Assembly: GCF_017642925.1 (NCBI RefSeq)
Contig: NZ_JAEPOL010000015.1
Location: forward strand, 18,160 to 82,159
Length of the DNA stretch: 64,000 nucleotides
Source: Maricaulis sp.
GTDB taxonomy: Bacteria > Pseudomonadota > Alphaproteobacteria > Caulobacterales > Maricaulaceae
Reading direction: 5' to 3'
Made by a program: the position numbers and the translations under genes. How positions within the stretch are numbered: the stretch's first letter is position 1; every line of letters starts with the position of its first letter. Below, in pieces: positions 3,839 through 32,740 of this stretch. The notes beneath the pieces are model-generated. The model worked only from the letters and a program-made list of their open reading frames with translations. It searched no databases and was not told the origin of the DNA.

Positions 3839-5062
3839 ATGGCGCATACACTGAGCGTGAGTTTCGAAGGATCCGGCGGCGACACGCTGGACGCCCGTCT
3901 GGAAATGCCAGCCGGCCCGCCGCGGGCCTATGCGCTGTTTGCCCACTGCTTCACCTGCTCCAAGGATTATTTCGCCGCCAGCCGGATCTCGCGCCGGCTT
4001 GCCGATCGCGGCTTCGCCGTTCTGCGCTTCGACTTCACCGGCCTGGGCGAATCGGAAGGCACGTTCTCCGAGACCAGCTTTTCCTCGAACGTCGCCGACA
4101 TCGAAAAGGCGGCGGACTTCCTGAAGCGCGAGTATCAGGCACCGGCGCTCCTTGTCGGACACAGCCTGGGCGGAGCCGCTGTGATCGTGGCGGCCGGACG
4201 GATCGCGTCCGTTAAGGCGGTTGCTACACTCGCTGCGCCGGCCGATGCCAGTCATATCATCCAGTCGATGGGCGTCGATACGGATGCCATCGAGCGCGAC
4301 GGCCAGGCCGAGGCGACGCTCGGCGGGCGCACCTTCACCGTCACACGCCAGTTTCTCGACGACATCGCCGACCTGAATGTCGAGGCCGCTGCGCGGGCGC
4401 TGGAACAGCCGCTCCTGATCGCGCATTCGCCGGTCGATGCGGTGGTCGGGATCGACAATGCCTCGCGCCTCTTCCTGGAAGCCCGCCATCCCAAGAGTTT
4501 CGTCAGCATGGACCATGCCGATCACCTGATCGGCGATCGCCGGGATGCCGCCTATATCGCCGATGTGATTGCCGCCTGGGCTGCGCGCTATGTGGCGGAC
4601 GAGCGGGATGACCGCGTGCCGGAACCGGCCGGCGAGGGCGGGGTCGTGGTCGCCGAGACCGGACAGGGGCGCTATGAGAATCATGTCGTGATCGGCGATC
4701 ACGTCATGCTGGCCGACGAGCCGGAGCGGGTCGGCGGTCATGATTCCGGCCCGTCTCCCTACCAGTATTTGCAGGCTGCGCTGGGCGCATGCACCTCGAT
4801 GACGATGCGCATGTATGCCGAGCGCAAGGACTGGCCGCTGGAGCGGGTGACGGTGACGCTGCACCATGAGAAGGGGCATGCCGAGGACGGCGAGGCGACC
4901 GTCGAAGGCGAGGCCCGCAAGGTCGATATCATCGACCGCTCGATCCGGATCGAGGGCGATCTGGATGAAGATCAGCGCGCCCGGCTGATGGAAATTGCCG
5001 ACAAATGCCCGGTTCACCGCACCCTGAACGATCCGGTCGTGATCCGCACCCGTCCGGTGTGA
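3839..5062 (+). CDS. bifunctional alpha/beta hydrolase - OsmC family protein
   Basis: GHSLGGAA nucleophile elbow in N-terminal half; OsmC-like C-terminal half (ALGACTSMTMRMYAERK ... DKCPVHRTL). ATG 3839 chosen. Confidence 0.88.
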   Translation: MAHTLSVSFEGSGGDTLDARLEMPAGPPRAYALFAHCFTCSKDYFAASRISRRLADRGFAVLRFDFTGLGESEGTFSETSFSSNVADIEKAADFLKREYQAPALLVGHSLGGAAVIVAAGRIASVKAVATLAAPADASHIIQSMGVDTDAIERDGQAEATLGGRTFTVTRQFLDDIADLNVEAAARALEQPLLIAHSPVDAVVGIDNASRLFLEARHPKSFVSMDHADHLIGDRRDAAYIADVIAAWAARYVADERDDRVPEPAGEGGVVVAETGQGRYENHVVIGDHVMLADEPERVGGHDSGPSPYQYLQAALGACTSMTMRMYAERKDWPLERVTVTLHHEKGHAEDGEATVEGEARKVDIIDRSIRIEGDLDEDQRARLMEIADKCPVHRTLNDPVVIRTRPV

Positions 5063-6755: not shown

Positions 6756-7427
6756 GTGCGCATCCTGATAGTCGAAGACGATCGCGAGGCCGCGAGCTAT
6801 ATCCGCAAGGGCCTGCGCGAGAGCGGCCATGTGGCCGACCACGCCGGTGACGGCGAAGAGGGCCTGGAAATGGCCCGCGCCGCGGACTACGACGTGCTCG
6901 TCGTCGACCGCATGATGCCGCGCATGGACGGCCTGTCCATGGTTGAAACCCTGCGCGGGGAAGAGGATCGCACGCCGGTCCTCATCCTCTCCGCCCTCGG
7001 CGAGGTCGATGACCGCGTCGAAGGCCTCAAGGCCGGTGGCGACGACTATCTGGTCAAGCCTTACGCCTTTGCCGAACTTCTGGCCCGCGTCGAGGCACTC
7101 GCCCGGCGCCGGGACCCGGAGACCGTCCGCACCAAGCTGGTTGTGGGCGATCTGGAGATGGATCTCCTTGCCCGCACGGTTGTCCGGGACGGCGAGGAGA
7201 TCCTGCTTCAGCCGCGGGAATTCCGCCTGCTGGAATTCCTCATGAAGCATTCCGGTCAGGTGGTGACACGCACCATGCTGCTGGAAAAGGTCTGGGACTA
7301 TCACTTCGACCCCCAGACCAATGTGATCGACGTGCACATTTCACGACTGCGCTCGAAGATCGACAAACCCTTCCCGCGGGCGCTTCTGCACACCGTGCGA
7401 GGGGCCGGCTACCGCCTTCAGGCCTGA
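6756..7427 (+). CDS. OmpR-family response regulator
   Basis: Receiver domain (RILIVEDD, LVVDRMMPRMDG) plus winged-helix C-terminus (TNVIDVHISRLRSKID, VRGAGYRL). Confidence 0.95.
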   Translation: MRILIVEDDREAASYIRKGLRESGHVADHAGDGEEGLEMARAADYDVLVVDRMMPRMDGLSMVETLRGEEDRTPVLILSALGEVDDRVEGLKAGGDDYLVKPYAFAELLARVEALARRRDPETVRTKLVVGDLEMDLLARTVVRDGEEILLQPREFRLLEFLMKHSGQVVTRTMLLEKVWDYHFDPQTNVIDVHISRLRSKIDKPFPRALLHTVRGAGYRLQA

Positions 7428-7433
7428 TCGGGC

Positions 7434-8864
7434 GTGACCCAGCGCAGAGCCGCCTTTCTCAGGACGACAGCGTTCCGGCAGACCCTCCTGTCGGCAGCGC
7501 TGTTCGCCCTGTCCAGCTTCGTCATCCTGGGCTTCGTCTATGCAGCCTCGGCCGGCATGGTCGTGCGCCGGGCGGACGCGGTCGTGAATGACGAGGTTCA
7601 GGTCCTCAATGACCGGTTCCAGTCCGGCGGGATCGACAATATCCGCCTCTATATTCTCCAGCGCACGGTGGGCGGTGGCGATTATCTCTACCTGCTTATC
7701 CATCCGTCGGGACGGACCCTGGGTAATCTGAGTTTCCTGCCCGACGTCCAGCCGGACGAGGAGGGCAGGGTCCAGTTCACCTACAGGCGGCCTCCCGCAG
7801 GTGGCGTGGATGACGACAACGAGAAGGAAGACAGGATTGTCCGCGGCCAGATCGTGGAACTCCCGTCCGGCTATCGCCTGTTTGTCGGCCTGGATGTCGA
7901 TGACGAGACGCGCCTGATCTCGCGCATGCTCAACACGATCCTGGCAGCCTCGGCCCTGGCGCTGGCGCTGGGCGTGGCAGCGGGGATATTCGTCAGCCGC
8001 CGTTTCGTGCGCCGCCTGGACAAGATCAACAATGTCGCCCGCCGGGTCCGGGCCGGTGACCTGCAGCCGCGAGCCCCCCGGAATTATACCGGCGACGAGC
8101 TCGACGAGTTGTCCGAGAATTTCAACAACATGCTCGACCGGGTCGAGGCGCTGATGCATCGCATGCGCCACACCGGCGACAGTATCGCCCACGATCTGCG
8201 CACGCCGCTGACCCGTATGCGCAACCGGCTCGACGAGGCCCTGCGCGAGGATGGCGATCTCGATGCCCGCGAACAGGCCCTCGAACGCGCTGTCGCCGAT
8301 ACCGACGAGCTGCTGGGCATCTTCAATGCCATCCTGTCGCTCTCGCGCCTGGAAGCCGGTGAGAGTCGGGCGTCGATCGTGCGCCTCGATCCGGCCGAGA
8401 TCGCGGCAGACATGGCCGAGCTTTACGAGCCGGTCTGCGAGGATGACGGCCTGTCCTTCGCCAGCGAGATCCAGCCGGGCCTGGCGATGCTGGGCGATCG
8501 CGGTCTGCTGTCCCAGGCACTCGCCAATATTCTCGACAATGCCGTCAAATACACGCCGGCCGGCGGGGCCGTGACCCTGCGGCTGCGCGAGACGGGCGAG
8601 GGGATGATCGAGTTTTCCGTGACCGATACGGGCCCGGGTATTCCCGATGTCGATCGCGAACGCGTGGTGCAGCGCTTTGTGCGTCTGGACAATTCGCGCT
8701 CCCAACCGGGTTCCGGGCTTGGCCTGTCGCTCGTGCAGGCGATTGCCGATGTCCACAATGGCCGCTTTGAACTGAATGAAGGCCCGGGTGTCGTGGCGGA
8801 CGGTCACGGGCCGGGGCTGCGCGCTTCGCTCTGCTTTCCCAAGGCGCCGCGGGAAGCCGGATAA
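7434..8864 (+). CDS. sensor histidine kinase, HAMP domain
   Basis: Two TMs, HAMP, SIAHDLRTPLTRMRNRL H-box, HATPase boxes; immediately follows the response regulator. Confidence 0.93.
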   Translation: MTQRRAAFLRTTAFRQTLLSAALFALSSFVILGFVYAASAGMVVRRADAVVNDEVQVLNDRFQSGGIDNIRLYILQRTVGGGDYLYLLIHPSGRTLGNLSFLPDVQPDEEGRVQFTYRRPPAGGVDDDNEKEDRIVRGQIVELPSGYRLFVGLDVDDETRLISRMLNTILAASALALALGVAAGIFVSRRFVRRLDKINNVARRVRAGDLQPRAPRNYTGDELDELSENFNNMLDRVEALMHRMRHTGDSIAHDLRTPLTRMRNRLDEALREDGDLDAREQALERAVADTDELLGIFNAILSLSRLEAGESRASIVRLDPAEIAADMAELYEPVCEDDGLSFASEIQPGLAMLGDRGLLSQALANILDNAVKYTPAGGAVTLRLRETGEGMIEFSVTDTGPGIPDVDRERVVQRFVRLDNSRSQPGSGLGLSLVQAIADVHNGRFELNEGPGVVADGHGPGLRASLCFPKAPREAG

Positions 8865-26305: not shown

Positions 26306-27388
26306 ATGCCCGTAATGAGTGTTCTCGAGCACGTATCGTTCGACAATCACGAAAAAGTCCTGTTCGCCACCGACGAGACGACCGGCCTCAAGGCGGTCAT
26401 CGGTGTGCACTCCACGGCCTCCGGCCCGGCCTGCGGCGGCTGCCGCATGTGGTCCTATCCCAATTCGGACGCGGCCCTGACCGACGTGCTCCGCCTGTCC
26501 CAGGGCATGAGCTACAAGAATATCATGGCCGACCTGCCCATCGGCGGCGGCAAATCCGTGATCATGAAGCCGGAAGGCGCCTTCGACCGCAAGGCGCTGT
26601 TCGAGGCCTTCGGCCGCGCGGTGGAAAGCCTCAACGGCCAGTACATCACCGCCGAGGATGTCGGCGTCAGCCCGGACGACATGATGGCCGTGCGCCGCTC
26701 GACCGAGCATGTGGTCGGCCTGCCGGAAGGCAAGGCGGCCTCGGGCGATCCCTCGCCGGTGACCGCCGAGGGCGTCTATCGCGGCATCATGGTGTCCGCC
26801 GAGCGCGGCCTGGGCAAGCGCGACCTCAACGGCGTCAAGATCGCCATCCAGGGCGCGGCCGGCCATGTCGGCACCTATCTGGCCGGCCATCTGGCCAAGG
26901 CCGGTGCCGAGCTCTTCGTCACCGATATCAACCAGGACGGGCTGGAAAAGCTGAAGGCGGAATACGGCGCCACCATTGTCGGTCTCGACGAGATCTACGA
27001 CCAGGATGTCGACGTCTTCGCCCCGTGCGCCCTCGGCTCGATCATCAATCCGGACACGATCGACCGCATCAAGGCGAAAGTGATCGCCGGCGCCGCCAAC
27101 AACCAGCTCGCCACGCGCGAGATGGGCGCGGAAGTCCTCAAGCGCGGCATCGTCTATGCGCCGGACTATGTCATCAATGCCGGCGGCATCATCAATGTGA
27201 TGGGCGAGATCGCCGGCGACTTCAATCCGGCATGGGTGAAGGGCAAGCTGGACGGTCTGGAAGCGACCCTGGGCGAGATCCTCGACCAGTCCAGCAATGA
27301 AGGCCGCCCCTCCAACATCATCGCCGACGAGATTGCCCGCCAGCGCATCGAAGAAAAGCGCGCTGCGAAGCTGGGCAAGGTGGCTTAG
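26306..27388 (+). CDS. leucine/Glu/Phe/Val dehydrogenase family protein
   Basis: GGGKSVI, ITAEDVGVSPDDM, IQGAAGHVGTYLAGHLAKAGAELFVTDIN, PCALGSIIN, GAANNQLA. Start may be 26315. Confidence 0.93.
   Translation: MPVMSVLEHVSFDNHEKVLFATDETTGLKAVIGVHSTASGPACGGCRMWSYPNSDAALTDVLRLSQGMSYKNIMADLPIGGGKSVIMKPEGAFDRKALFEAFGRAVESLNGQYITAEDVGVSPDDMMAVRRSTEHVVGLPEGKAASGDPSPVTAEGVYRGIMVSAERGLGKRDLNGVKIAIQGAAGHVGTYLAGHLAKAGAELFVTDINQDGLEKLKAEYGATIVGLDEIYDQDVDVFAPCALGSIINPDTIDRIKAKVIAGAANNQLATREMGAEVLKRGIVYAPDYVINAGGIINVMGEIAGDFNPAWVKGKLDGLEATLGEILDQSSNEGRPSNIIADEIARQRIEEKRAAKLGKVA
27226..27388 (+). repeat. direct repeat copy A (3' end of intact leucine dehydrogenase gene)
   Basis: 163 bp matching 28239-28401 with 6 mismatches by manual alignment. 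Confidence 0.95.
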
Positions 27389-27415
27389 GTTTCAAGCGCC
27401 GGATCCGGTTCGACC

Positions 27416-27460: not shown

Positions 27461-28060
27461 TCAGAGCTCGCCGTTCGCAGGGCCGAACCGTGTCGGGCGC
27501 GTCGTGCTGCTGCCTGCAAGCTGGACCAGCAGGAAGATCAGCGAGACGAGGTAGAGCAAATTGTTCGCGAAGCCGAACATGAACAATGCCGGGTTGGGAA
27601 TTCCCTCATCGCCCATCATCTGAGCGAAGAGTGTGGCGAAGATGGCCAGGCCGGACAACAGGAGAACCGCCGGAGCCATGCCCCACAGGCCCGACATGCC
27701 GCGATCATGCAACCGCCGGGTCACAGCTGCGGCCAGAAGCGCGACTGTGACGGCAACAACGACACTCATCGCGGTGACGATGATTGTGAAGTCTGGGAAA
27801 AGTTCCGGGTGGCTTCCTTCGATGCGAACGGAATACTGGCCCGCGGATCGATCGACCGTTGCGAGTTCGGGATTCTCGGCAATGAAGGTGTCAACCCGTT
27901 CGAAGGTGGACAGGATTTCGGGGACCATGGCCAGCATCGCCCCCAGAAAGGCGAGTGCCAGAACAACGCCCGCATAAGGCCAGAAGCTGTCGCGTGCCTG
28001 CCGCCCGTTGAAATTGGACAGGTTTTCAAGATTGTAGCGAATGGCTGCGCCGAAAGTCAT
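27461..28060 (-). CDS. DUF805-type membrane protein
   Basis: NLENLSNFNGRQARDSFWPYAGVV start plus RRLHDRGMSGLWGM. Confidence 0.8.
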   Translation of the reverse strand: MTFGAAIRYNLENLSNFNGRQARDSFWPYAGVVLALAFLGAMLAMVPEILSTFERVDTFIAENPELATVDRSAGQYSVRIEGSHPELFPDFTIIVTAMSVVVAVTVALLAAAVTRRLHDRGMSGLWGMAPAVLLLSGLAIFATLFAQMMGDEGIPNPALFMFGFANNLLYLVSLIFLLVQLAGSSTTRPTRFGPANGEL

Positions 28061-28238
28061 GATTGCCCCGAGTGTGTCATGGGCCGAGCCTAGTGCAGCG
28101 CAGGGTTGAAAGCGAGCACTCTACGCCGGCGCGGCAACCGTCACGAATGCAGGGTCGAGCTTTGCGGAAACCCGCTCGGCCTCGTTGATGGCGAGGACAG
28201 TCAAGAAGGGGACATCAAAAAGGGGACACACACCATTT

Positions 28239-28401
28239 TCCGGAATGGGTGAAGGGCAAGTTGGGCGGTCTGGAAGCGACCCTGGGCGAGATCCTCGACC
28301 AGTCCAGCAATGAAGGCCGCCCCTCCAACATCATCGCCGACGAGATCGCCCGCCAGCGCATCGAAGAAAAGCGCGCCGCGAAGCTGGGCAAGGTGGCGTA
28401 G
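28239..28401 (+). pseudogene. orphan duplicated 3' fragment of the leucine dehydrogenase gene (direct repeat copy B)
   Basis: Encodes EWVKGKLGGLEATLGEILDQSSNEGRPSNIIADEIARQRIEEKRAAKLGKVA-stop with no upstream gene body; 6/163 mismatches to copy A. Confidence 0.95.
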
Positions 28402-28451
28402 TTTCTGGCGCCGGGCGCCTGAGGGCGTCCGGGGTTTTGATGGCGAGTTTG

Positions 28452-28487
28452 ATCTGCCGCGCCCGCCTGGGTGCGGCAGATTTTTTT
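28452..28487 (+). terminator. intrinsic terminator after the dehydrogenase 3' fragment
   Basis: ATCTGCCGC-loop-GCGGCAGATTTTTTT. Confidence 0.85.
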
Positions 28488-28741
28488 GGGGTGGGGAGCG
28501 CTTGAAGTCAGGGCTAAACTAGGTGTCGTCACCGGCTGGTCGGAGCTATTCCGATTGCGTGAATTCAGATCGCTGTTCAGGCATGGTTCTCGCTCTGGTG
28601 CTTCTTCCAGTTGTTGGGGCGCGGGAGTATAACTGTCTGATTTAGAATATTTTCCTTTTCCATTGCTGCTTAAGGTCGACAGAGTTGCCATGCAAAAGCA
28701 AAGTTGAGAAAGTTTGGGGGACGGAAGGGACGACCACAAAC

Positions 28742-30040
28742 ATGATCGATCAACTGGACGAACATGAATTCGGGGAAAAACTTGCTACCGTTCTGCGGCC
28801 AGCGCGACCTGTTGACAGCGAGGAGCTGCTACACGGACGTACGACGCAATTGACCAAAATTCGACGTGCAATGATGTCGCCCGGCCAACATGTATTTATC
28901 TATGGCGATAGAGGGGTGGGAAAAAGCTCGCTTGCCCAAACCGCATCCGCCTTGCACCAGTCCCTAGATTTAAATGAAATCGTAGTTTCATGCAGTAATG
29001 AAACGGAATTCTATGGTCTCGTGCAGGATATCGCACGAAAGCTCGCACCAGAAGCGTCAATGGTGGAGCGAAAGGAGCGCACGACTTCGGGTGAACTCGC
29101 GTTGGGCGGTCTGAAAGGGGGAGTGTCAGAGAAGGTACAGCGCGGAATTATTCCCGGCCTCGCCACGATCAATGACGCTGGTCAGCTCCTGCGCGAGGTT
29201 GCATCACCTTTTCGAGAGCCAGTCGTCGTTATCGTGGACGAGTTTGATCAGCTCATCGAAGACAGGGACAAAAAACTGTTCGCTGATCTGATTAAGCACG
29301 TTTCTGATACGAGTGTCCCAATCAGATTTGTTTTCTGCGGAATTGGAAAATCGCTTCAGGAGTTGATTGGGGTCCATTTGTCCACCGATCGATATCTTAC
29401 TCCGGTAGAACTTTCTCCACTATCCCATGACGCCCGATGGGCAATTTTGGAAGGGGCTGCCGAGGCCCTCTCTGTTTCGGTAGACCGCGAGACGCTAATA
29501 CGGATTGGTCAAATCAGTGATGGTTTTCCATACTATGTCCATTTGATCGGCCAACATATGTTTTGGGCTGCATACGAAGCGCAGGAAAAGGTGACCAACG
29601 TCGCGCTTGGACACTTTCATGAAGGCGTTACGGGCGCCATTCAGGACGCGCAAACTTCGCTCAGGCAGGCGTACGAACAGGCCACTCAGAAGTATGATGG
29701 CAAAAAACAATATGAACATGTTCTTTGGGCCGTTGCGGATTCGACAGATTTCCAACGAGCGTCAACGGAAATATTCGAAAACTCTTACTTGCCAATCTGT
29801 CAGCGGTTGAATGTAGACCCCGTGACCAAGCAGACATTTCACAACCGAATGAACCGTTTAAAATCAGAAGCTCACGGAACTATATTGGAATCACCTCGAC
29901 GGAGCTGGTATCAGTTCAAAGAAAATATGGTTCGGGGGTATGTTCGCATGCGTGCGTCGCAATCTGGAATAGAACTTGGTGCGGATCACCATGCTGCGCG
30001 AAAGGCTCCGACCTGGACGCGCGAACTGAGCGAACAGTAG
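28742..30040 (+). CDS. Orc1/STAND-like AAA+ ATPase
   Basis: Walker A FIYGDRGVGKSSLAQT, Walker B VVVIVDEFDQLIED, sensor-like IRFVFCGIGKS; lower-GC region; ATG 28742. Confidence 0.85.
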   Translation: MIDQLDEHEFGEKLATVLRPARPVDSEELLHGRTTQLTKIRRAMMSPGQHVFIYGDRGVGKSSLAQTASALHQSLDLNEIVVSCSNETEFYGLVQDIARKLAPEASMVERKERTTSGELALGGLKGGVSEKVQRGIIPGLATINDAGQLLREVASPFREPVVVIVDEFDQLIEDRDKKLFADLIKHVSDTSVPIRFVFCGIGKSLQELIGVHLSTDRYLTPVELSPLSHDARWAILEGAAEALSVSVDRETLIRIGQISDGFPYYVHLIGQHMFWAAYEAQEKVTNVALGHFHEGVTGAIQDAQTSLRQAYEQATQKYDGKKQYEHVLWAVADSTDFQRASTEIFENSYLPICQRLNVDPVTKQTFHNRMNRLKSEAHGTILESPRRSWYQFKENMVRGYVRMRASQSGIELGADHHAARKAPTWTRELSEQ

Positions 30041-30150
30041 CGTGTCCTTCCGCGCCAACGGCGACATGTAAGAGCCTGGCTGATGAGTTAAGATGGGTAA
30101 CGTCAGATTCTCCGTGACCAAATAGCCAGCTAGAGACGTGGGAGTCCTTA

Positions 30151-31110
30151 TTGCCCAGCTTGTTCTTTTCCTATTCCCACAAGGATGAGGAACTTCGCGA
30201 TCAGCTCGAAACCCAATTGGCCATGCTGAAGCGCCAAGGCGTGATTGAAGCTTGGCATGACCGCCGCATACCAGCCGGTGGAGAGATCAATCGCGAAATC
30301 GACCAGCACATAAACACTGATGATATTATACTTTTGCTTATCAGTCCTGACTTCATTGCCTCGGACTATTGCTGCGAAGTCGAAATGACGCGTGCGATGG
30401 AACGACACGAAGCAGGGGAAGCGGTTGTGATCCCGGTGATCCTGCGACATTGCGACTGGAAAGAAGCGCCATTCGGACGCCTCAAGGCCGTGCCACGGGA
30501 TGGTAGGCCGATCAAGCAATGGACTGACACAGATGAGGCATTTCTTGAGGTCGCGAAGGAAGTTCGAGCCGTCGCAAGACACGTCGGCGCCGCCAATGCT
30601 TCAGCATCAAAAGAGCCTGTACTGCTAGCGTCTCCAGTTGAAATGCCGGCGGCGCCCGCACCGCCGCGTTCGAGCAATTTGCGTGTGGCTAAGACCTTTT
30701 CTCAACGCGACAAAGACAAATTCAAGCTTGAAACATTCGCGTTCATGGCCCGCTTTTTCAAAAACTCGCTGGAAGAGCTGACGACCAGAAACAGCGATCT
30801 TGAAGGTGTATTTCGCCAAATTGATGCCAACCGCTTTACTGCGGCCATCTACCGTGCTGGCGCCAACGTCGGAAGTTGCACAGTTTTTATGGGAGGTGGT
30901 TTTGGCGACGGAATCAACTACGTCCACGGGGAAAGAAGCGAGAGCAATTCAATGAATGAATCCTTGCGGGTCGAAGCGGATGGTCAGTCGCTCTATTTCA
31001 CCAGCATGGGTATCGCGATGTTTAATGCGTCAAGGGAGCGCGATGCCAAGCTCTCCCAAGAGGGTGCGGCGGAGCTTTTCTGGGGAATGCTCATCGCTCC
31101 GCTCCAATAG
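30151..31110 (+). CDS. TIR-domain protein with uncharacterised C-terminal domain
   Basis: LFFSYSHKDEELRDQLETQLAMLKRQGVIEAWHDRRIPAGGEINREIDQHINTDDIILLLISPDFIASDYCCEVEMTRAMERH is a typical bacterial TIR domain. TTG start at 30151 with upstream GGAG. Confidence 0.88.
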   Translation: MPSLFFSYSHKDEELRDQLETQLAMLKRQGVIEAWHDRRIPAGGEINREIDQHINTDDIILLLISPDFIASDYCCEVEMTRAMERHEAGEAVVIPVILRHCDWKEAPFGRLKAVPRDGRPIKQWTDTDEAFLEVAKEVRAVARHVGAANASASKEPVLLASPVEMPAAPAPPRSSNLRVAKTFSQRDKDKFKLETFAFMARFFKNSLEELTTRNSDLEGVFRQIDANRFTAAIYRAGANVGSCTVFMGGGFGDGINYVHGERSESNSMNESLRVEADGQSLYFTSMGIAMFNASRERDAKLSQEGAAELFWGMLIAPLQ

Positions 31111-31123
31111 TTCGAGGCTCATC

Positions 31124-31582
31124 ATGATTGGTATTTCTCAAGTTTTTTCCGGAAGCCTTCATGAGGTTCTTCCTTTGTCATTTTTTGTCGCCACTGGGGG
31201 CGATAACTTGGATATACTTACGATTGGTTCCCAAGATAACCCTTGGGATATTGTGCTGTCTGGGCAGGACCCGTTTGTGTGCTATGAGCACGGCTACCAT
31301 GATTGGAGTGGCGCTGCTTTTCCTGATGTGACTATAGAGTTAGATCCTGCAAAGGTGATCGATGATAGTTTTAGGAAAGGCCCGCCGGGGAGCATCATAC
31401 TAGTTGGTACAGAGCCGAGAATACGCTTGTTGGGAAATCATGGTAGGGCTTATACAAGGCCGATATACGGGTCCGACCAGTCCCAACAGGGAGGGTTTGG
31501 TGTTTGCTTTCCTCGTTGGCAGATCGTTATTGGCGAGGGCGACAATAAACAGGTGCTAAAAACTGTAGATGTCTCTTCCTAA
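31124..31582 (+). CDS. hypothetical protein, 152 aa
   Basis: ATG 13 nt after the TIR gene stop; same strand; no recognised family. Confidence 0.7.
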   Translation: MIGISQVFSGSLHEVLPLSFFVATGGDNLDILTIGSQDNPWDIVLSGQDPFVCYEHGYHDWSGAAFPDVTIELDPAKVIDDSFRKGPPGSIILVGTEPRIRLLGNHGRAYTRPIYGSDQSQQGGFGVCFPRWQIVIGEGDNKQVLKTVDVSS

Positions 31583-31699
31583 CAACCGCTCACTACTTTT
31601 TGGCATGTCTGTCAACACCCCGCCAATTCTTAAATCGTTGGCATTGGATATGAGCGGCAGTGCGGGGTAGGGGGCTGCCCTCCCGCACCAAAGCCCCCC

Positions 31700-32740
31700 T
31701 TACGCCCCCACCACAGTCACAAACGCTTCGTCCAACTCCACACCCACCTTGTCCCCCACAGCCAGCTTGGACGGCACCGGTGTGTGCGTCGTGAAGCTCT
31801 GGCCTTCGGCGTTCTCGATCGTGAAGGCGAGGTGTGTGCCGGCGGAGCGGCGGCGGGTTACGGTGAAGGGGGCGTCTGCGGCCGGGGTGAGGCGGATGGC
31901 CTGGGGTCTCACCAGGACGTAGACGGTGCAGCCGTTCTTGAAATCCGGCGTGGCGACCGGGCCCAGCGGGGTGTCTGCGGCGCCGGCCTTTATGAAGGCC
32001 TCGATCACCTCGATATCGCCCAGAAGGCGGGCGGCGGTGACGCTGTGCGGATGGGTCCAGACATGTTCCGGCGTGCCGGTCTGGATGACGCGGCCCTGGT
32101 CCATCAGGGCGAGGGCGTCGGCGACGGCCATGGCTTCGTCGGCATCATGGGTGACCATGAGGGCGGTGGCGCCGGCGCGGCGCAGCGTGTCGACGGTGCG
32201 CTCGCGCAATTCCTGGCGCAGGCGGCGGTCGAGGCCGGAGAAGGGCTCGTCCAGAAGGACGATGGCGGGCGCGGGGGCGAGGGCGCGGGCCAGGGCGACG
32301 CGCTGCTGCTCGCCGCCGGAAAGCTCGTGCGGGAAGGCTTTCGCCTTGTGTCCCAGTTCGGCGGCCTCCAGCTGGGCCATGGCGATGGTTTTGGCGTCGG
32401 GGCCCTTGAGGCCGAAGGCGACATTGGCCAGGGCATCGAGATGCGGGAAGAGGGCATAGTCCTGGAACACCATGCCGACGCGGCGGCGTTCCGGGGCGAG
32501 GTGGCGGCCGGGCCCGGCCCACAGCGTGTCGCCCAGGCGGATCTCGCCGCCATCGAGACGTTCCAGTCCGGCAATGGCGCGCAGCAGGGTGGACTTGCCG
32601 CTGCCCGAGGGGCCGAGGAGGGCGGTGATGCGGCCCGGCTCGAGATCGAGATCGGCGCCGGCCAGGGCGGCCGTCTCCTTCACATAGCGGCGCTGGGCGC
32701 CGCGTATGCTCAATCCCCTGCGCGTGTGCGTATCCGTCAT
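31700..32740 (-). CDS. fbpC: ABC transporter ATP-binding protein (Fe3+-type)
   Basis: GPSGSGKSTLLRAIAG, LSGGEQQRVALARALAPAPAIVLLDEPFSGLD. Confidence 0.9.
   Translation of the reverse strand: MTDTHTRRGLSIRGAQRRYVKETAALAGADLDLEPGRITALLGPSGSGKSTLLRAIAGLERLDGGEIRLGDTLWAGPGRHLAPERRRVGMVFQDYALFPHLDALANVAFGLKGPDAKTIAMAQLEAAELGHKAKAFPHELSGGEQQRVALARALAPAPAIVLLDEPFSGLDRRLRQELRERTVDTLRRAGATALMVTHDADEAMAVADALALMDQGRVIQTGTPEHVWTHPHSVTAARLLGDIEVIEAFIKAGAADTPLGPVATPDFKNGCTVYVLVRPQAIRLTPAADAPFTVTRRRSAGTHLAFTIENAEGQSFTTHTPVPSKLAVGDKVGVELDEAFVTVVGA

Follow-up and report, generated by a model that had tools for sequence, protein, structure and literature searches.

A TIR-domain protein and a small, predicted all-beta partner, SM, form a conserved gene pair beside a probably independent prophage-type ATPase in Maricaulis

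Overview

The window, a 64,000-nucleotide stretch of a contig from Maricaulis sp., contains an inserted segment in which the genes for a TIR-domain protein (hereafter TIR) and for a small protein (SM) are the conserved unit, preceded by a gene for an AAA+ ATPase. At a probability of roughly 0.6, we read the insertion as two independent modules: a TIR-SM operon for NADase-driven abortive infection in which SM would be the sensor or adaptor, and an ATPase of prophage type. Gene anatomy, the conserved linkage of TIR with SM but not with the ATPase, the intact predicted active site, the defense neighborhoods of TIR relatives, and the faster divergence of SM are observations. NADase activity, activation by clustering, an abortive outcome, a sensor role for SM, and co-transcription are inferences, with NAD+ cleavage by clustering argued from analogy.

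An insertion at a variable chromosomal site

The AT-richer segment spans positions 28100..31700 (approximate boundaries, no strand assigned), and was delimited by its absence from the corresponding loci of two same-genus genomes (G300 and G289) and by the GC profile. GC content is 0.48-0.54 at 28.5-31.5 kb vs 0.60-0.76 to the left and right, as expected from the AT-rich stretch that a sequence-only reading of this DNA had described; the cassette itself has a GC content of about 50-54%. The three same-strand genes of that reading are all present as intact open reading frames on the + strand. The segment is bordered on the left by a DUF805 gene (27461-28060, - strand) and on the right by an ABC transporter gene (31700-32740, - strand), and a leucine dehydrogenase gene lies further left at 26306-27388. 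In G300 and G289 (loci L169 and L170), leucine dehydrogenase, DUF805, and ABC transporter genes are adjacent without the cassette, and five other genomes of the genus carry either other genes or none between leucine dehydrogenase and the ABC transporter. Because relatives have this interval without the cassette or with other content, we conclude that the cassette was inserted, and recently, at a site whose content varies. Different genes occupy the interval in L171, L173, and L174, which may make it a hot spot for insertions. The left edge of the inserted segment holds a feature that the sequence-only reading had not mentioned, a partial duplicate of the 3' end of the leucine dehydrogenase gene (28239..28404, + strand; 166 nt, 96% identical to the original at 27226..27391, + strand). 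The duplicate may be what is left of an attachment site, or a scar of recombination; a search on the right-hand side of the cassette gave no third copy.

The TIR protein

The TIR gene (30151..31110, + strand, TTG start at 30151) encodes 319 aa comprising a TIR domain at about residues 1-145, a disordered linker at about 153-177, and a C-terminal alpha/beta domain of no named family at about 180-319. That the protein opens with a bacterial TIR domain, as had been noted from the sequence, agrees with a Pfam TIR_2 match at residues 5-113 (E = 3.9e-17). The PADLOC ThsB model PDLC00420 matches the full length (residues 1-319, 450 bits), and the Pfam ThsB_TIR model scores 18.3 bits, below its cut-off of 21.2. 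In the AF2 model the TIR and C-terminal parts are mostly above 85 pLDDT, and searches with the C-terminal domain matched nothing in PDB and nothing consistently in Pfam. The closest solved TIR by sequence is Cat1 (CRISPR-associated TIR 1, PDB 9mud; E = 1.6e-11 with the family profile). The predicted catalytic glutamate, Glu78 (codon 30382-30384), does not vary among 29 relatives and corresponds in the alignment to the glutamate of the Cat1 SDWC..EL motif; the predicted TIR active site is therefore intact. With a TIR fold (TIR_2) and a predicted catalytic glutamate (E78), the protein has the features of the bacterial TIR NADase class and, judged by these sequence features, is most likely an NAD+-cleaving enzyme. 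Its relatives occur in phyla including Planctomycetota, Myxococcota, Verrucomicrobiota, and Cyanobacteriota.

SM is a linked and rapidly diverging partner of TIR

SM (31124..31582, + strand, 152 aa) begins 13 nt downstream of the TIR gene, the spacing originally reported. Its AF2 model, a confident one, is all-beta (pLDDT 88.5, pTM 0.85). No sequence match to SM was found in Pfam, NCBIfam, PHROGs, or PADLOC, a fold search of PDB and BFVD gave nothing below E = 0.06, and comparison of the SM profile with PDB sequences returned a chance match only (E = 0.89). A search of viral contigs for SM found nothing, and in a profile search of 385 Alphaproteobacterial genomes SM appeared in the window's genome only, together with one marginal match (E = 9.9e-4) inside a 551-aa frame.

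SM had been described from the sequence as a small orphan, a label that its recurrence beside TIR overturns. A genome-wide scan supplied 80 TIR loci taken from at least 368 relatives. Among the matches listed in profile searches, 20 of 92 loci (18 of the 20 distinct) have an SM homolog as the next gene downstream of TIR, in the same orientation, and SM is thus a real TIR partner. The gap between the two genes is 2-15 nt across these loci, with the exception of one plasmid (239 nt). A plasmid tblastn search likewise found SM adjoining TIR in Sinorhizobium fredii NGR234 and Sulfitobacter, and the same arrangement occurs in Bradyrhizobium. In a maximum-likelihood TIR tree, 19 of the 20 SM-bearing TIRs fall in a single 45-row clade (SH-aLRT 100), and the presence of SM requires 6 changes on the tree vs 25.8 when shuffled. 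Nested inside the SM clade is a 14-row gammaproteobacterial clade without SM. This distribution fits one gain followed by a later loss in the Pseudomonas/halomonad branch. Across the family, SM is missing from 64 of the 92 TIR loci among the matches listed, and TIR can therefore work without it.

The same-genus genome G300 carries its own copy of the pair at another chromosomal site, with TIR and SM 12 nt apart, a Tmn gene upstream, and no ATPase. Between the window and G300, identity is 80% for TIR and 52% for SM, and pN is 0.120 and 0.306, respectively, with synonymous sites saturated or nearly so in either gene. SM diverges faster than TIR. Pairwise distances of the two proteins are correlated across 15 loci when L010 is left aside (r = 0.78, p = 0.0002) and weakly so when L010 is added (r = 0.31, p = 0.057), in both cases uncontrolled for host phylogeny. 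Locus L010, on a Sulfitobacter plasmid, pairs an SM close to that of Sinorhizobium with the most divergent TIR, which suggests that partners can change by exchange.

Several further small genes were seen around TIR relatives. In L026 (6982-7467), SM is apparently frameshifted near its 3' end, with the conserved C-terminal motif seeming to continue in another frame (7239-7460); this suggests a sequencing error or a decaying copy. Loci L036 (4953-5432 and 6963-7451) and L037 (2439-2948 and 4028-4495) carry SM downstream of TIR and a second small gene upstream, which is SM-like by profile after iteration in L036 and a marginal match in L037. Eight Rhodobacterales loci have a gene convergent with TIR, and not co-directional, whose product is a possible SM relative (hhalign probability 58%); similarity of this retron-linked protein to SM is suggestive only of homology, and the same grade applies to the upstream protein of L057-type loci. 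In the Pseudomonas/halomonad branch lacking SM, a distinct conserved small gene of 118-125 aa adjoins TIR in two positions and orientations, being upstream and divergent in L006, L029, L030, and L031 and downstream in L035, L038, L041, and L042.

TIR relatives in defense neighborhoods

To place the TIR family in context, we considered the genes surrounding its relatives. In five Rhodobacterales loci (L007, L011, L047, L048, and L053), TIR follows a type VI retron reverse transcriptase (RT) at a distance of 15-20 nt; in L007, the RT and an HTH gene, matched by PADLOC RT_VI and HTH_VI, lie 20 nt upstream of TIR. These five loci (3789-6523 in L007) also share a conserved convergent gene of 168 aa about 50 nt after TIR, whose product may be a distant SM relative by sequence. 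In L064, TIR is located inside a type I restriction-modification operon. The gene order there, as seen in L180, places TIR between a PADLOC PDC-S18 candidate, with adjoining stop and start, and a methyltransferase gene 2 nt away. Other relatives adjoin genes for PLD_Helicase (L014), Tmn (L167), a Ppl-like protein (L043), RmrA (L102), a type I specificity subunit (L095), and a type III methyltransferase (L074). These neighbors are selected examples without a matched control, and therefore represent an association, not a measured enrichment.

A proposed mechanism for the TIR-SM pair

In the proposed mechanism, TIR subunits would be inactive when separate. Phage infection would bring TIR domains together and switch on NADase activity, by analogy with SpbK (PMC12847820), and the active enzyme would drain NAD+ such that the infected cell stops. 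SM, probably encoded on the same transcript as TIR, would act as a rapidly evolving sensor or adaptor: on binding a phage protein or some signal of infection, it would cluster or license TIR through the TIR C-terminal domain. We consider SM the most likely trigger-sensing or clustering partner because it is linked to TIR, evolves rapidly, and is dispensable in relatives with other arrangements. Rapid divergence is also compatible with SM being an inhibitor or a relaxed accessory protein.

A broader and speculative extension, which we hold to be doubtful, is that SM is the founding member of a class of exchangeable, small, beta-rich infection sensors, with one NADase effector being re-targeted by partner swap. 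The partners would be SM itself, co-directional, in Alphaproteobacteria; the relative that lies convergently in loci joining retron VI and TIR; a relative encoded upstream in L057, L060, and L061; and the unrelated 118-125 aa protein in Pseudomonas and halomonads.

Alternative explanations and the place of the ATPase

The main rival is a toxin-antitoxin-like pair, in which TIR is toxic and SM inhibits it until infection removes or titrates SM. We regard this as rather unlikely. The tight linkage of a small gene to an effector, its fast divergence, and its spread on plasmids and insertions all speak for such a pair, and a precedent can be found in Sofic, for which a small regulatory gene adjoining a toxic defense gene is reported (PMC12249575). 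However, the 64 of 92 TIR loci without SM, which include the 14-row gammaproteobacterial clade, argue that SM is not a universal antitoxin of the TIR family, and so many TIRs without SM disfavor an obligatory antitoxin role. Many antitoxin genes precede the toxin gene, with exceptions, whereas SM lies downstream of its effector.

Far less probable is a role for TIR as the ThsB of a Thoeris system, producing a cyclic ADP-ribose signal that acts on ThsA or another effector encoded elsewhere. The full-length match to PDLC00420 favors this idea; against it, neither STALD nor ThsA_Macro was found in the window's own genome, and among 44 TIR-bearing genomes STALD occurs in 1/44 and ThsA_Macro in 0/44, the Macro search having been run without a positive control in both cases. 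In the single genome with STALD, STALD is on contig C14 and the TIR locus is on a differently numbered contig, C6. ThsA is also absent from the recurrent neighbors of TIR.

The sequence-only reading had given the ATPase the task of sensing or regulating and TIR that of depleting NAD. The ATPase gene (28742..30040, + strand) encodes a 432-aa, ORC/Cdc6-like AAA+ protein in which both of the motifs first pointed out from the sequence, Walker A GDRGVGKSS (28904-28930) and Walker B VVIVDEFDQL, are present. It matches Pfam AAA_16 (E = 4.8e-11) and, below the model cut-off, an ORC/Cdc6 model, and it matches phrog_6841 over almost its full length (residues 13-417, E = 1.8e-72). Its relatives include 16 plasmid records and 34 loci in viral contigs, and the genes near sampled relatives encode antitermination Q, Rha/KilAC, DUF968, a restriction endonuclease, an FRG protein, and an AbiJ_NTD5 protein. 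The profile match over most of the protein and the phage context of its relatives place it in the phrog_6841 prophage ATPase family, although in the window it neighbors a TIR module within an insertion in the chromosome and does not lie in a prophage.

A three-gene unit, in which the ATPase senses, TIR executes, and the small protein assists, draws on the three genes being adjacent on the same strand in one insertion of similar GC content. Two other loci point the same way: in L111, one of the closest ATPase relatives, of viral type, is 44 nt from an AbiJ_NTD5 protein (4175-4915) whose C-terminal stretch matches a PADLOC TIR effector model, and in L010 (4992-10909), TIR and SM are followed by a giant NACHT-like protein of >1400 aa whose gene overlaps SM by 4 nt. 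Nonetheless, we judge this unit to be quite improbable. The ATPase is absent from all TIR loci other than the window's (0/100 among the matches listed), and no TIR-profile match occurs in any ATPase locus other than the window's (0/42), some of which have near-identical ATPases. Such rarity in a neighborhood search is the result that the sequence-only reading itself had named as refuting the ATPase-TIR pair, and a conserved trio of ATPase, TIR, and small gene was rejected on these counts. When 41 TIR-bearing genomes were searched whole for the ATPase, two candidates emerged. One is a true relative, located about 11 kb from TIR, and the interval contains an integrase gene and a type I restriction-modification operon; the other, in the genome of L045 (G457), was rejected as an unrelated exopolysaccharide-type protein. 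Among 61 relatives of the window's genome, the ATPase and TIR occur together only in the window's own. Spacing differs as well, with 110 nt separating the ATPase from TIR vs 13 nt between TIR and SM, and in G300 the DNA homology starts 45 nt before the TIR start, excluding the ATPase. The ATPase is probably an independent module with its own separate anti-phage or prophage-maintenance role. What stands of the sequence-only reading is the mobile defense context, the intact predicted TIR active site, and the lack of a matching named system, and what falls is the division of labor between the ATPase and TIR.

Some bacterial TIR proteins have been proposed to act on a eukaryotic host, and several relatives do come from host-associated bacteria such as Sinorhizobium fredii NGR234, but their spread across Planctomycetota, Myxococcota, Verrucomicrobiota, and Cyanobacteriota, beside defense genes, leaves such a role, or the lack of any defense role, most improbable.

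Implications

To our knowledge, little is understood of how bacterial TIR proteins that stand alone detect infection. SM, a fast-evolving protein without a known fold match that is locked to one TIR clade, offers a testable two-gene candidate for the sensor that is missing from this picture. TIR proteins without any ThsA can receive a full-length ThsB annotation, so automated counts of Thoeris systems taken from the PDLC00420 model alone would mislead. The case of the ATPase is a warning that neighbors in defense islands need not form one system.

Comparison with known systems

The three genes could not be assigned to any named system, in agreement with the sequence-only reading: membership in Thoeris, retrons, CBASS, SPARTA, and TIR-STAND fails in each case. 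With Thoeris ThsB, the window's TIR shares the TIR domain and the full-length PADLOC match, whereas the partner is ThsA there and SM here; Thoeris membership was rejected as the defining effector, ThsA, was not found. Retron membership was rejected since no reverse transcriptase is encoded among the open reading frames at 28.4-31.7 kb. The type VI retron loci of Rhodobacterales have a TIR of the same family and a possible SM relative in convergent orientation, whereas the window's SM is co-directional and no RT accompanies it. A CBASS TIR-SAVED assignment was rejected because the alignment to PADLOC SAVED_TIR is confined to the TIR part (residues 3-144), and no SAVED or CD-NTase match was found in the three genes. 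The short Argonaute system SPARTA was rejected in the absence of an Ago or APAZ match, and Foldseek matches of TIR to SPARTA (TM-scores 0.23-0.36) are read as resemblance of the TIR part only. TIR-STAND and TIR-NLR were rejected given that the ATPase and TIR are separate genes that do not co-occur (0/100 and 0/42).

Two characterized TIR proteins offer closer likenesses. SpbK of Bacillus subtilis is a TIR NADase that becomes active when its molecules associate with one another on a phage portal protein, with abortive infection following from NAD+ cleavage, and its TIR domain is C-terminal, at residues 111-266 (PMC12847820). Like SpbK, the window's TIR protein carries another domain besides the TIR domain and is not accompanied by a separate effector that degrades NAD, with clustering and NAD+ cleavage shown for SpbK and proposed here. 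The SpbK-like architecture of a C-terminal TIR behind an N-terminal portal-binding domain is not the one found in the window: the TIR domain lies at the N terminus, no search connected the remaining domain with that of SpbK, and downstream there is a small gene for a dedicated partner. Cat1 is a filament-forming assembly according to its PDB molecule name; it differs from the window's TIR in its second domain and in its association with CRISPR, no CRISPR genes being found in the cassette. A literature search, with most subscription journals and bioRxiv outside its coverage, found no description of a TIR and SM pair. Set against these systems, TIR and SM appear to be a two-gene form of TIR-based phage defense that has not been described before.
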